A stretch of DNA of 36,984 nucleotides from an uncultured Gammaproteobacteria bacterium (lineage in GTDB: Bacteria; Pseudomonadota; Gammaproteobacteria; GCA-002705445; GCA-002716945). How positions within the stretch are numbered: the stretch's first letter is position 1; each line of letters begins with the position of its first letter. The notes below the pieces were generated by a model that did not search any database, was not told the origin of the DNA, and saw nothing but the letters and a program-made list of their open reading frames with translations. A program made the position numbers and the translations under genes. Positions 15,450 to 36,984 of the stretch are shown here, one piece after another. The stretch spans positions 1 to 36,984 of the forward strand of contig CAJWVG010000009.1 of the NCBI GenBank assembly GCA_913048065.1, given 5' to 3'.

Positions 15450-17138
15450 TTAGTTAATTTTTTCTAGAGAATTACTATTTTTGATCGAAACATAGAACTT
15501 CCAATCCATTACCTCAATAGTAGCATGATTTGAAATATCAAATGATTGGAATTCTTCTAGAGGAAAAACTCTTTTTTCAATACCGTTTACTAATAAGCTT
15601 ATTGGCATAATAAAATTTGCGTTAACATTGTTCCATTTATAGAAAAACTTTGAATCTGTTTGATAGTACTCTAACTCTGGTTGATTTGGAGTGTATAAAT
15701 ATTGTTCAGAAAAATATGAATAATCACTACCAGTTTTCTCTTGAACTTTTTCAAAAAAGTCTTCTGTGCTAACATGACTTTTTGCATTTTCAACCATGAA
15801 TTCTTTTAATATTGCAAACCAAATAGGGTCGTCATTTATAACGCTCCTTAGCGTGTGCATTACCCAAGCACCTTTCATATAAGTATCACCATTTAAAGCC
15901 CAATAATTTTCATCTTCTGGTCCTACAATAGGAATTTTATTTTGAATCCTAGATTTAATGCTTTTTAAGTAATCAACACTTACTGGGTAGCTATTAAATT
16001 TATCTTCAAAATATAATGCCTCAGAGTAGACTTGCAACCCCTCATGAATCCAAATATGTGTTGGATCGATCGCAGTAACACTATTTCCAAACCATTCATG
16101 ACCCGTTTCATGAATAATAAGCGGATCAATAACACCATACATAGCCCAACTACTACTTCTAACACCATTATAGATGCTAAAACCATTTCCGTAAGTTACA
16201 GCGGATTGATGTTCCATTCCTAAATAAGGGACTTCAATAAGTTTATATCCGTCATTCCACCACTGATATTCCCCAAAATATTTTTCATAGAAACGAATAA
16301 CCTCTTTTGCCTGTAAGAAGTAATTTCTTCCAATTTCTTCGTTATAGTCTAAAACATAATGATTCAAATAATGAATCATATCATCTTTTATAAATGTATC
16401 TTGAACTGCAACATAGTTTCCGATCTGAACTGAAATATTATAGTTATTAATTGGATTATTCACAAACCACTCATAGGTAGTTTTATCATTATCTTGTTCT
16501 ACAATACTTCTAAGTTGGCCATTACCAACACTAACTAAATGAGATGGTACAGTAAAAGCCATTCTAACGCTATCAGGTTCTTCAGTAATATGATCTTTAT
16601 TAGGCCACCAAATTCTTGCACCTTCCCCTTCACAAGAAACTGCAACCCAATCTCTGTTATCTTTATCTTTAGACCATGTGAATCCTCCTGACCAGGGTGG
16701 ATTATCAGCACCTTGAGGCACTCCATTATAATGAACGGTAAAATCAAATAGTAAATCTTTATCTATAGTTTTATTGAATATTACCATAACAGCATCTTCT
16801 TCTCTACTGTATTCAATAGAATTATTTTGATGAGTAATTTTTGTAATATTTAAATTTTTAGCTAGATCTACTTGAAGAGTATCAATATTATCAAGACTTT
16901 TTGCTTTAATAGTTACAAAGCCATCTATTGATTTTTGTTCTATATCAAAATCTATATTAATATCATAATAAGATACATCATATGATGTACGATATTCGTT
17001 TAAAAATCCCATCAAATAATTATTACGAGTTAATTTTGGCATATCAGTTTGTGATCCATGAGGCCTCAAATTATCAACATTTGCATTGCAAGCAATTAGC
17101 AAAAGATAGAATGTAAGTAAGCTATATATTTTTTTCAT
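15450..17138 (-). CDS. M1-family zinc metallopeptidase, lipoprotein
   Basis: I start the protein at 17138 (MKKIYSL), giving 562 residues with a lipoprotein signal peptide whose lipobox LLIAC places the modified Cys at residue 17. The track's longer start would put 28 residues in front of this signal. The M1 zinc site is complete: HETGHEWFGN at 343-352 with the third ligand Glu in WIHEG at 366. The usual GAMEN substrate loop is replaced by GMEHQ (307-311). The family removes N-terminal residues from peptides; as a lipoprotein it would act at the envelope. Its start overlaps the small membrane-protein gene by 17 bases, and it ends the minus-strand operon. It has no obvious link to polysaccharide synthesis. 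Confidence 0.9.
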   Translation of the reverse strand: MKKIYSLLTFYLLLIACNANVDNLRPHGSQTDMPKLTRNNYLMGFLNEYRTSYDVSYYDINIDFDIEQKSIDGFVTIKAKSLDNIDTLQVDLAKNLNITKITHQNNSIEYSREEDAVMVIFNKTIDKDLLFDFTVHYNGVPQGADNPPWSGGFTWSKDKDNRDWVAVSCEGEGARIWWPNKDHITEEPDSVRMAFTVPSHLVSVGNGQLRSIVEQDNDKTTYEWFVNNPINNYNISVQIGNYVAVQDTFIKDDMIHYLNHYVLDYNEEIGRNYFLQAKEVIRFYEKYFGEYQWWNDGYKLIEVPYLGMEHQSAVTYGNGFSIYNGVRSSSWAMYGVIDPLIIHETGHEWFGNSVTAIDPTHIWIHEGLQVYSEALYFEDKFNSYPVSVDYLKSIKSRIQNKIPIVGPEDENYWALNGDTYMKGAWVMHTLRSVINDDPIWFAILKEFMVENAKSHVSTEDFFEKVQEKTGSDYSYFSEQYLYTPNQPELEYYQTDSKFFYKWNNVNANFIMPISLLVNGIEKRVFPLEEFQSFDISNHATIEVMDWKFYVSIKNSNSLEKIN

Positions 17139-17319
17139 AAAAGGTTTTTGATTGAAACACACTCTTAGCAAAGATGATATAGTACAATAAAATACAAAAC
17201 AAAAACCAAAGGACAATTGCAAAGGCTTCTTTTATTGCAAATAGTACGTAAGCAATAGCAAAGTAAATTATCCACTTCACCCAATTAGGTTGATGCCAGA
17301 GTTTTAATAATAAATTCAT
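17122..17319 (-). CDS. Small hydrophobic membrane protein, unknown function
   Basis: The 65-residue protein has two predicted membrane helices, about residues 15-33 (WVKWIIYFAIAYVLFAI) and 35-50 (AFAIVLWFLFCILLYYII), with charged ends. The ATG overlaps the end of the sulfotransferase gene (ATGA), and its stop lies 17 bases inside the start of the peptidase gene. Both junctions are typical of coupled genes in an operon, which is why I treat it as real and not as a shadow ORF. I do not recognise a family. It might be a membrane partner of a neighbour, but nothing in the sequence shows this. Confidence 0.55.
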   Translation of the reverse strand: MNLLLKLWHQPNWVKWIIYFAIAYVLFAIKEAFAIVLWFLFCILLYYIIFAKSVFQSKTFYEKNI

Positions 17320-18033: not shown

Positions 18034-18939
18034 CTAGCCTATATATTCTTCAATTTGTTTATTATAGAACGCTCTAATTTGATTTACTAAAGAATCAGAA
18101 TTAGTAGATTCTAATTTTCTTCCCTCTAATTCTGAAACTGGAATAATTCCTGCAAATGTTCCTGTTACAAAAGCTTCATTACAGTTTTTAATATCATCGA
18201 ATGTAAAATCAGTTTCAGAGCACATTATATCATTTTGATTACATACTAAAATAGCTTTTCCTCTTGTAATACCATTTAAACAATATTGACCTGTAGAAGT
18301 AAGTACCCTATCATTTTTAATGAAAAAAAGATTTGTGGAGTTGCATGTACTGACATTACCATTTATATCATTCATAATACCTTCGTCATATCCGAGTTTA
18401 TTAGCCTCAATACTAGCTAAAATACAATTTAGCTTGCTTAGAGTATTGTAATGAGGGCTTAATATACTTTCATTTGGTCTAATATTGGGGACTCTGCCAA
18501 TACTTACCCCATTGGTATAAGTGTTTGGATTGGTTTTTTTATATTCAGGAATAATCACCATATTAATAGGTCCAACATTCGCATTAGGATTCTGGTATGG
18601 AGTTATCTTATCTCCTCTAGAAATGACTAATCGAATATGTATATTGTTATCCATTTTATTTTTATCTAATACTTTATTTATTTCATTTATTATTTCTTGT
18701 TTCGAAAAAGGAATATCCAACGAAATACCTTGTGCGCTTGCGAACAATCTATCAAGATGATCTTCAATAAAAACAAGAAAAGATTTATGAAGTCTTATTC
18801 CTTCCCAAACACCATCTCCTAGCAAGAATCCACTATCAAAAACAGAAATTTTTGCTTCATTTCTATGAAACAATTCTCCATTGATATTAATAAAAATATC
18901 CTTGTTTTTTGGATTCGATATGTATGAATGACTGCTCAT
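18034..18939 (-). CDS. Class IV PLP aminotransferase (D-amino acid / branched-chain aminotransferase-like)
   Basis: From the ATG at 18939 the protein has 301 residues. The track start at 18951 (GTG) lies inside the tRNA and is rejected. Fold-type IV motifs are ININGELFHRNEAKISVFDSGF, LLGDGVWEGIRLHK, HLDRLF, the PLP lysine K169 in LSKLN, and NGITRGKAI for phosphate binding. The Glu that normally contacts the PLP nitrogen (VxEGxxSN) is replaced: the site reads NVSTCNSTNLF, with Thr at 198. The enzyme would transfer amino groups to or from a 2-oxo acid; the altered site may change chemistry or substrate. It begins 3 bases after the mature 3' end of the tRNA, with no room for an SD outside the tRNA. 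Confidence 0.85.
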   Translation of the reverse strand: MSSHSYISNPKNKDIFININGELFHRNEAKISVFDSGFLLGDGVWEGIRLHKSFLVFIEDHLDRLFASAQGISLDIPFSKQEIINEINKVLDKNKMDNNIHIRLVISRGDKITPYQNPNANVGPINMVIIPEYKKTNPNTYTNGVSIGRVPNIRPNESILSPHYNTLSKLNCILASIEANKLGYDEGIMNDINGNVSTCNSTNLFFIKNDRVLTSTGQYCLNGITRGKAILVCNQNDIMCSETDFTFDDIKNCNEAFVTGTFAGIIPVSELEGRKLESTNSDSLVNQIRAFYNKQIEEYIG

Positions 18940-18942
18940 GTG

Positions 18943-19016
18943 TGGGCCCACAGGGACTTGAACCCCGAACCTGCGGATTATGAGTCCGTTGCTCTAACCA
19001 ATTGAGCTATGGGCCC
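18943..19016 (-). tRNA. tRNA with CAU anticodon (elongator Met or Ile2)
   Basis: The minus strand folds as a complete tRNA of 74 nt. The acceptor stem is GGGCCCA/TGGGCCC with discriminator A. The D-arm region is TAGCTCAATTGGTTAGAGC and the anticodon loop CTCATAA has anticodon CAT. The T-arm is GGGGTTCAAGTCCCT. CCA is not encoded; the genome continues CAC then ATG. CAT tRNAs may be elongator Met or the lysidine-modified Ile2; I cannot separate them by eye, but the lack of initiator features argues against fMet. It is the first element of the minus-strand unit. Confidence 0.93.
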
Positions 19017-19087: not shown

Positions 19088-19933
19088 ATGAATAGCATTA
19101 ATATAGGAATTATTGGTTTAGGCTATGTTGGTAAGGCATGTGAATCTATATTTAGTAACTTTTTCAATACATATACATTTGATATTAATGGCAGTGGTTC
19201 TGAAAATTCACTAAAAACATTAGTAGGTAAGGTGGACATCTTATTCATATGTGTACCTACTCCAATGAATGCTGACGGTTCATGTAATTTAGAGATTGTT
19301 GAAACAGTTTTAACTGATATTAATGATTGTAAGAATAGTATTTGTATCATTAAATCAACCATTACTCCAGGTTCTTCTACATATTTTGAAAAGAAATTTA
19401 AAAATCTCAAAATCTATTTTAATCCTGAATTTCTCACAGAAGCTAATTTCATCGAAGATTTTAAGAATCAAACTCAAATTATAATTGGATCATCAGATAA
19501 GAACTTTAATTTGATTGAAAAGATATATCAACTGTCCCTGCCTAATGCTAAAATTATTAAATGTAATTTTGAAGAGGCTGAGATGGTTAAATATTTCATC
19601 AATACTTTTCTTGCTGTCAAAGTAAGTTATGCAAATGAATTATTTAATCTTTGTAATAAGATGAATATTGACTATAAAAAAGTATCCGAAATAGCACAAC
19701 ATGATGACAGGTTAGGGAGTTCACATTTTAAAGTTCCTGGGCCAGATGGCAAATTTGGTTTTGGAGGATCTTGTTTCCCAAAAGATATAAATTCTCTTAT
19801 TGATATTTTTAATAAAAAAGGAGTAAAGTCTTATGTCTTAAAAGCTGCTTGGGATAGGAATACTAATGAAGATAGAATAAATAGAGATTGGGAGCAGTTA
19901 ATAGGAAGAGCCGTGGTTAAAAATGATGAATAA
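19088..19933 (+). CDS. Short UDP-glucose/GDP-mannose dehydrogenase-family protein
   Basis: The 281-residue protein has the NAD-binding GIIGLGYVGKA at residues 7-17, E114 in NPEFLTEAN, the central-helix K168 in EMVKYFINTFLA, and the catalytic Cys C229 in FGFGGSCFPKD. These support oxidation of a nucleotide sugar to its uronic acid. Family enzymes are usually 390-450 residues; here the protein stops soon after the central domain, so the C-terminal UDP-binding domain is missing. The reading frame ends cleanly and overlaps the next gene by 11 bases, so it looks like a natural short form, not a frameshift. It opens the long plus-strand run and groups with a CysC-like kinase and an HxGH nucleotidylyltransferase. 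Confidence 0.8.
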   Translation: MNSINIGIIGLGYVGKACESIFSNFFNTYTFDINGSGSENSLKTLVGKVDILFICVPTPMNADGSCNLEIVETVLTDINDCKNSICIIKSTITPGSSTYFEKKFKNLKIYFNPEFLTEANFIEDFKNQTQIIIGSSDKNFNLIEKIYQLSLPNAKIIKCNFEEAEMVKYFINTFLAVKVSYANELFNLCNKMNIDYKKVSEIAQHDDRLGSSHFKVPGPDGKFGFGGSCFPKDINSLIDIFNKKGVKSYVLKAAWDRNTNEDRINRDWEQLIGRAVVKNDE

Positions 19934-20390
19934 AAAATATAGAATTTTATGGCTAACAGGCCAACCTGGATCAGGTAAAACAACGCTATCTAATGCGATT
20001 ATAAAAATAATATCTAATAATGAAAAGTTTGCTAACATCAAAACCATGCAAATTGATGGAGATGATCTTAGAGATTTAACAGATAATAAAGACTATTCTG
20101 AAAAAGGAAGAAGAGAAAATATTAGTTTGAGCCAAAAGATTGCTTTCTTTTGTCAAAATAAAGGATACTTTGTCATTGTTTCACTTGTTGCCCCATATCT
20201 TGATTTGAGAGAAAGTTTTAAAAAGAAAACTGAAGTTTGTGAAGTATATTTACATACAACAGAAAATAGAGGAAAGGAAAAATATTTTTCATCTGATTAT
20301 GAAAAACCTTTAGACAATTTCCTGAACTTGGATACAACCAACAAAACAATCGAGGATACGGCGAATGAGATACTCTCTTTTTATTGGTAG
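19923..20390 (+). CDS. CysC (adenylylsulfate kinase)-like P-loop kinase
   Basis: The 155-residue kinase has the Walker A loop GQPGSGKT at residues 13-20 and the CysC-type block IDGDDLRD...EKGRRENI at about 43-62. A second ATG at 19926 is an equally possible start. Past this point it departs from true APS kinases: the ISPYR segment reads VAPYLD, and the KKARAG segment that binds APS is not recognisable. It therefore probably phosphorylates another small or nucleotide-linked substrate, though APS cannot be excluded. It overlaps its upstream neighbour by 11 bases and the nucleotidylyltransferase downstream by 26. The kinase call is sure; the substrate is not. Confidence 0.75.
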   Translation: MMNKKYRILWLTGQPGSGKTTLSNAIIKIISNNEKFANIKTMQIDGDDLRDLTDNKDYSEKGRRENISLSQKIAFFCQNKGYFVIVSLVAPYLDLRESFKKKTEVCEVYLHTTENRGKEKYFSSDYEKPLDNFLNLDTTNKTIEDTANEILSFYW

Positions 20391-20703
20391 ATGGCAACCA
20401 TGGCATGATGGCCATCGATGGCTTATCGATCAACAATTAAATAAAGGCAAAAAGGTATGCATTGCGATAAGAGACATGCCAAAAGATAAAAATAACCCTT
20501 TCTCCCCAAATGAAATTAAAGAAAATCTCGAAAATGAATTGAGTAGTTTAATTCAAAATGGTTCCGTGAAAGTAATTGTCATACCTGATATAGAATCTGT
20601 AAATTATGGAAGAGGTGTAGGTTATGATATTATTGAACACGTACCTCCAGAAAAAATAAAAAGAATATCTGCAACTAAGATTAGGGAAAAGATGAATGCT
20701 TGA
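20365..20703 (+). CDS. Small HxGH-type nucleotidylyltransferase
   Basis: The 112-residue protein starts with SLFIGRWQPWHDGHRWLI, the N-terminal phosphate-binding motif of the cytidylyl/adenylyltransferase superfamily (HDGH at about residues 14-17). It ends with RISATKIREKM, the matching iSxTxxR motif. NadM/NadR-type enzymes have the same GRWQP/GRFQP start, but this protein is shorter than typical NMN adenylyltransferases (about 170). It overlaps the CysC-like kinase by 26 bases and wzz by 8, and probably works on that kinase's product or substrate. It is less like HldC (which usually reads NGCFDLLHxGH), so I do not assign it to the heptose pathway. Confidence 0.75.
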   Translation: MRYSLFIGRWQPWHDGHRWLIDQQLNKGKKVCIAIRDMPKDKNNPFSPNEIKENLENELSSLIQNGSVKVIVIPDIESVNYGRGVGYDIIEHVPPEKIKRISATKIREKMNA

Positions 20704-36454: not shown

Positions 36455-36984
36455 CTAGTATCTGTATTCATCTTTCTTAAATGGACCCTCAACCTTAACT
36501 CCAATGTAATCTGCTTGATTTTTTGTCAGAATAGTCAAGTCAGCATCAAGATGTTCTAGGTGTAATCTTGCAACCTCTTCATCAAGCTCTTTAGGTAAAT
36601 TATATAGTCCAACTTCAGGCTTTTCTTTTGCTAAAAATAGCTGCGCTAGTACTTGATTTGCAAATGATGTTGACATAACAAAGCTTGCATGTCCTGTTGC
36701 ACATCCTAAATTTACTAGTCTACCTTCGGCTAATAGAAATATTTCTTTACCATCAGGAAAGGTGTACCTATCATATTGAGCTTTGATTTGTTCTCTCTTA
36801 GCATCTGAGTCATTTAAAGCATCTACTTGGATTTCATTGTCAAAGTGACCAATATTGCAAACAATAGCTTGATCTCTCATTTGTCTCATATGTTCGAGAG
36901 TGATGATATCTTTATTTCCAGTAGTTGTTACAAAAAGATGACCTTTATCTAGCACACTTTCTAGTGTTCGAACTTCAAAACCTT
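36455..36984 (-). CDS. ahcY: S-adenosylhomocysteine hydrolase, C-terminal part (5' end outside window)
   Basis: The frame is open to the window edge and reads [15 protein letters not shown] before the track's GTG start, so the gene is cut by the window and not short. The blocks [47 protein letters not shown] and [16 protein letters not shown], and the C-terminal DEYRY (family PxxYRY; last Lys replaced by Glu-Tyr), are diagnostic. The enzyme hydrolyses S-adenosylhomocysteine to adenosine and homocysteine with bound NAD, a housekeeping job that also supports the methyltransferases nearby. It converges on hddA, with the 34-bp palindrome between them. Confidence 0.95.

Follow-up and report, generated by a model that had tools for sequence, protein, structure and literature searches.

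A conserved class IV aminotransferase-like family without the Schiff-base lysine and the N1-contacting glutamate is paired with a PF19798 sulfotransferase

The window, that is the whole stretch of 36,984 nucleotides analysed here (contig CAJWVG010000009.1, assigned to an uncultured Gammaproteobacteria bacterium), carries a gene for a class IV aminotransferase-like protein, flanked on the same strand by a tRNA-Met gene and a sulfotransferase gene (Table 1). A preliminary description of the locus had named the first gene a class IV aminotransferase, and its open reading frame does match Pfam Aminotran_4 (PF01063) at E 6e-40, with 137.8 bits against a cut-off of 28.5. Membership in the class IV domain family is further backed by structure, the modelled protein having the type IV fold with TM scores of 0.85–0.92 to 7z79, 5cm0 and 5mqz. 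None of the named NCBIfam equivalogs (ilvE, D-amino-acid transaminase, pabC) was reached: the best scored 216 bits against a cut-off of 363, and the others also fell below theirs. The tight spacing of the pair was described correctly as well, the sulfotransferase frame starting a single base after the aminotransferase-like stop codon. Because the tRNA gene lies equally close upstream both here and in a Marinimicrobia single cell (AG-426-A04, locus L017), the pair may be co-transcribed with it.

Table 1. Positions of the genes and of the codons discussed in the text, counted from the first letter of the window.
Feature	Position	Strand	Remarks
Class IV aminotransferase-like protein, 301 aa	18034..18939	-	N at PLP-lysine column, T at Glu column
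PF19798 (Sulfotransfer_5) sulfotransferase, 238 aa	17316..18032	-	1 base downstream of the aminotransferase-like gene
tRNA-Met (CAT)	18942..19016	-	Ends 2 bases before the aminotransferase-like start codon; same spacing in Marinimicrobia L017
N165 codon (AAT), column of the catalytic Schiff-base lysine	18445..18447	-	Alignments to 5mqz and 7z79; 9j32 is the N174K mutant
K169 codon, four residues past N165	18433..18435	-	K in 105/119 and R in 14/119 homologues; Tyr in 5mqz
T198 codon, column of the Glu contacting PLP N1	18346..18348	-	Alignment
R49 codon, phosphate-cup arginine, family-invariant	18793..18795	-	Alignment; role from class IV structures
T225 codon, GIT phosphate-binding loop, family-invariant	18265..18267	-	Alignment; role from class IV structures

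This single cell is the nearest relative of the locus, with 3.5 kb of synteny at 78% nucleotide identity spanning the tRNA-Met, aminotransferase-like, sulfotransferase and M1 peptidase genes. The M1 peptidase gene (window 15450–17222), syntenic there, is absent from the sampled same-genus and same-family relatives of the window's assembly. A SahH fragment (window 36458–36955) is 60–65% identical to same-genus and same-family relatives, and the assembly's own-lineage SahH is found on C3, so that two different SahH lineages are present in one assembly. Given the missing peptidase and the two SahH lineages, the contig probably stems from Marinimicrobia and was binned with another organism, which leaves the family-level conclusions unaffected. 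PAPS genes are present in the window's assembly and, because the contig looks mis-binned, are not counted as evidence for the host organism.

We located the catalytic residues by alignment. More specifically, when the archaeal branched-chain aminotransferase (BCAT) 5mqz (PNIKSLNYLNNILAKIEAN) is aligned with the window protein (PHYNTLSKLNCILASIEAN), the lysine column falls on N165, which occupies it in every alignment (context HYNTLSKLN), and K169 stands opposite a tyrosine. The preliminary description had the PLP lysine as retained; this is incorrect, and K169, which belongs to another column, is the probable source of that reading. Its statement that the Glu near PLP N1 is missing holds, as T198 occupies this column within the motif GNVSTCNSTN where 5mqz has SEGSGDN. 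The phosphate motifs are likewise kept as described (R49, G223-I-T225 and T259-G-T), the roles of R49 and T225 being those we take from established class IV structures. The window protein therefore retains the phosphate cup of class IV transaminases and has lost both the Schiff-base lysine and the N1-contacting Glu. Altered PLP electronics had been proposed as the consequence of the missing Glu; with the lysine itself gone, the question is whether PLP is used at all rather than how its electronics are tuned. The window protein is very probably not a canonical lysine-PLP transaminase.

To place these replacements in a family context, 84,980 species genomes were searched with the window protein and the best 80 loci were kept. 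All 80 carry N at the lysine column together with T at the Glu column. Adding loci from plasmids and from a phylum sample to the genome-contig loci gave 119 sequences with N at the lysine column (hereafter N-type), in which the Glu column holds T in 105 and S in 14. Across the same set, about 60 positions are at least 97% conserved, a uniformity inflated by collecting homologues through similarity to the window protein, though they were not chosen on their residues at positions 165 and 198. These positions include R49, T225 and G260 of the phosphate cup and the new constants S168, N200, H101 and Q116; all seven, as well as W45 and E46, are close to 100% conserved. No lysine column is invariant, with K111 and K169 replaced by R and K134 by S in some members. 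It is therefore unlikely that another lysine forms the Schiff base throughout the family, and K169, K111 and K134 were each rejected as a family-wide displaced lysine. The closest relative among the matches listed (81% identity) has the same residues at 165 and 198, which argues that the losses are not a sequencing error. As judged from these alignments, the double loss of lysine and Glu is a conserved trait of the family, beyond chance.

The closest structure in the PDB, 7z79, is a Variovorax paradoxus 'aminotransferase-like protein' with 36% identity and a TM score of about 0.9 to the window model. Like the window protein, it has N at the lysine column and an NST motif, with S in place of the N1 Glu. 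It falls inside the clade of 119, so that both proteins share a single clade defined by N at the lysine column and T or S at the Glu column. In a second entry, 9j32, this Variovorax protein carries the mutation N174K, and N174 falls in the N165 column of the window protein. A literature search found no paper describing 7z79 or 9j32. Class IV BCAT and D-amino-acid aminotransferases (5mqz, 5cm0, 1daa) have the fold, domain and phosphate cup in common with the window family; these enzymes possess the Schiff-base Lys and the N1 Glu, whereas the window family has neither. In Arabidopsis, the BCAT-like proteins 1 and 2 (At3g05190, At5g27410) combine a sulfotransferase-like domain with a class IV aminotransferase-like domain in one chain; neither locus name occurs in the papers searched.

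The partner matches PF19798 at E 3e-49 (168 bits against a cut-off of 23.2), and its model (pLDDT 94) resembles the CurM, TPST and olefin-synthase sulfotransferases, with the fold of PAP-bound sulfotransferases. W6, P9, R10, S13, T14, R105 and S113 are invariant in 35 partner sequences, which share the motif WSGPRNxST, and a PAPS site is predicted from a 5'-PSB-like loop and a 3'-phosphate-binding R...S motif. The only solved relatives found by sequence with the partner profile are CurM 4gbm and the olefin synthase 4gox (E 2e-8 and 2e-7, respectively). Both are polyketide synthase domains, whereas the PF19798 partner is a stand-alone protein with about 15% identity to them. CurM-type sulfotransferases sulfate a beta-hydroxyl and thereby create a leaving group. 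An APS kinase is present in 20 of the 21 genomes with both genes, which makes PAPS supply in carrier genomes plausible, the enzyme being common anyway (11 of 14 control genomes). Within the window itself, a short gene resembling APS kinase, with a nucleotidyltransferase-like ORF after it (19923–20703), lies beside polysaccharide-type genes and is probably unrelated to PAPS supply.

The preliminary description had suggested looking for the sulfotransferase beside other homologues with the TCNSTN motif. A PF19798 gene lies directly downstream on the same strand at 78 of the 80 best loci, in genome contigs of Marinimicrobia, Proteobacteria, Bacteroidota and marine archaea. Conservation is limited to these two genes: no other neighbour in the flanks of the loci is conserved beyond genus-level synteny, and a larger operon was rejected. 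Even sampling across phyla gave a similar picture, in counts that ignore relatedness: PF19798 occurred in ten of 200 sampled genomes besides the window's own, all ten of which also carry the aminotransferase-like gene, and this gene occurred in 24 of 299 sampled genomes, 21 of them with PF19798 (15 adjacent, 6 unlinked). Co-occurrence without linkage points to a functional tie rather than to hitch-hiking, and we regard such a tie between the two proteins as very probable. No relative of the aminotransferase-like protein was confirmed on viral contigs, and no match to the partner was found in phages. A literature search found no functional study of the pair. In a comparison of six strains (PMC10040529), the 113 clusters that follow salt tolerance include an 'Aminotransferase class IV' and a 'Sulfotransferase' cluster with consecutive numbers, which lends the pair weak support. 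Another paper, PMC3879358, concerns a different aminotransferase and was set aside.

In a FastTree phylogeny, the N-type clade (119 sequences, including 7z79) has a modest support of 0.69, which rises to 1.0 when the homologue at locus L007 is included. This sister of the N-type clade (L007:1495-3119) is linked to a sulfotransferase gene located upstream; its lysine column is occupied by His (IHHNNLINN), and it retains the Glu (SETNATN). Loss of the lysine would thus precede that of the Glu on this tree. Linkage to a sulfotransferase is seen in both branches from the N-type root as well as in L007, and is therefore probably ancestral.

About 25 sequences in some subclades have no adjacent sulfotransferase and lie instead beside amino-acid transporters, which suggests that the aminotransferase-like protein can work without a sulfotransferase nearby and weighs against the two-gene reading given below. 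Two derived groups that lack the adjacent gene, paralogues in Rhodobacterales (TTNACN) and the 7z79-type group, are often transporter-linked; neighbouring genes encode GntR regulators, ABC transporters for polar amino acids, CLC channels and P5C-reductase or OCD-like enzymes. 7z79 itself sits in the NRSC subclade, and the rest of its branch is linked to transporters, has no sulfotransferase next to it and carries R at position 169. The recurrent 7z79-type cassette (L010:2921-9506, L016, L163) consists of an amino-acid ABC transporter, the aminotransferase-like gene, a CLC chloride channel and a P5C-reductase-like gene, sometimes with a GntR/FCD regulator. On the Mameliella alba plasmid pKUB257 (L144:5989-8453), the aminotransferase-like gene follows an amino-acid ABC transporter and overlaps with a gene annotated as choline-sulfatase, and in Yoonia an annotated choline-sulfatase gene lies about 4 kb from the aminotransferase-like gene. 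None was present at nine further loci without a sulfotransferase, and we take the sulfatase link as a hint and not as a rule. Among loci with the pair, the gene immediately upstream encodes an FAD-dependent DAO-family oxidoreductase in two archaea of marine group III (L055:5055-7619, L069:3684-6251). A flavin amino-acid oxidase gene is also directly upstream in one Marinimicrobia and divergent in two Alphaproteobacteria; these cases are too few to make a rule.

The best explanation, to which we give a probability of roughly 55%, is that a class IV fold has been neofunctionalised and, together with a PAPS-type sulfotransferase (PF19798), makes up a two-gene module of ancient origin. It builds on what the sequences show, namely the replaced residues, the phosphate cup that is kept, the operon arrangement and the joint occurrence of the two genes. 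A reaction other than transamination, in a pathway of a sulfated small molecule, as the preliminary description had ventured, is supported as the best reading by the sulfotransferase linkage at nearly all of the best loci. The sulfotransferase would sulfate a hydroxyl on a small molecule, probably one resembling an amino or hydroxy acid. The aminotransferase-like protein would act on the precursor or on the sulfate ester in its former PLP pocket, now remodelled, and the anion cup of this pocket could accommodate a phosphate or a sulfate. The chemistry may be a lysine-independent acid-base step, for example elimination, isomerisation or hydrolysis. The chances are about even that the aminotransferase-like protein works on a small-molecule substrate with no covalently bound PLP. 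Elimination is a natural guess because CurM-type sulfotransferases make sulfate leaving groups, the sequence similarity to them being remote; a step specified as elimination or isomerisation of a sulfate ester is, however, rather unlikely to be the right one. More tentatively, the protein could be a cofactor-independent enzyme on a sulfate ester or precursor made by its partner, with the PLP cup holding the sulfate or another anion, in a widespread and unrecognised sulfation pathway of bacteria and marine archaea.

Alternatively, vitamin B6 may still be used, with PLP or PMP held non-covalently in the intact cup. Ser or Thr at the N1 contact, as used by fold type II PLP enzymes, would favour beta-elimination or replacement over transamination, for example of an O-sulfo amino acid that the partner supplies. 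The invariance of R49, GIT225 and T259-G-T and the presence of T or S at the N1 column in every N-type member are consistent with this, as is the His of L007, which with its Glu kept recalls ColD-type enzymes, fold type I proteins that still use B6 with His standing in for Lys. Without an invariant Lys column, however, there would be no internal aldimine and no obvious catalytic base, and we consider non-covalent use of B6 doubtful. Loss of the catalytic residues and near-obligate pairing could also describe a pseudoenzyme that binds substrate for the sulfotransferase or regulates it; this is improbable, as the roughly 60 highly conserved pocket and loop positions are more than a scaffold would be expected to require and relatives lacking the sulfotransferase are maintained in operons with transporters. 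It is very improbable that the protein is an ordinary transaminase with K169 as its displaced Schiff-base lysine. Position 169 is near the lost lysine in sequence and is K in most homologues, but four of the 14 homologues with R there are sulfotransferase-linked, the N1 Glu is lost as well, and the depositors of 9j32 mutated the N174 position and not the downstream one.

For the family, neofunctionalisation of the class IV fold would bear first on annotation. Homologues are annotated as 'aminotransferase class IV' or 'D-amino acid aminotransferase', which leads pathway models to assign transamination where the key residues are not present. Furthermore, the nearly obligate pairing with a PF19798 sulfotransferase, which extends over several phyla and preserves the gene order, points to a conserved, as yet unnamed sulfated metabolite.
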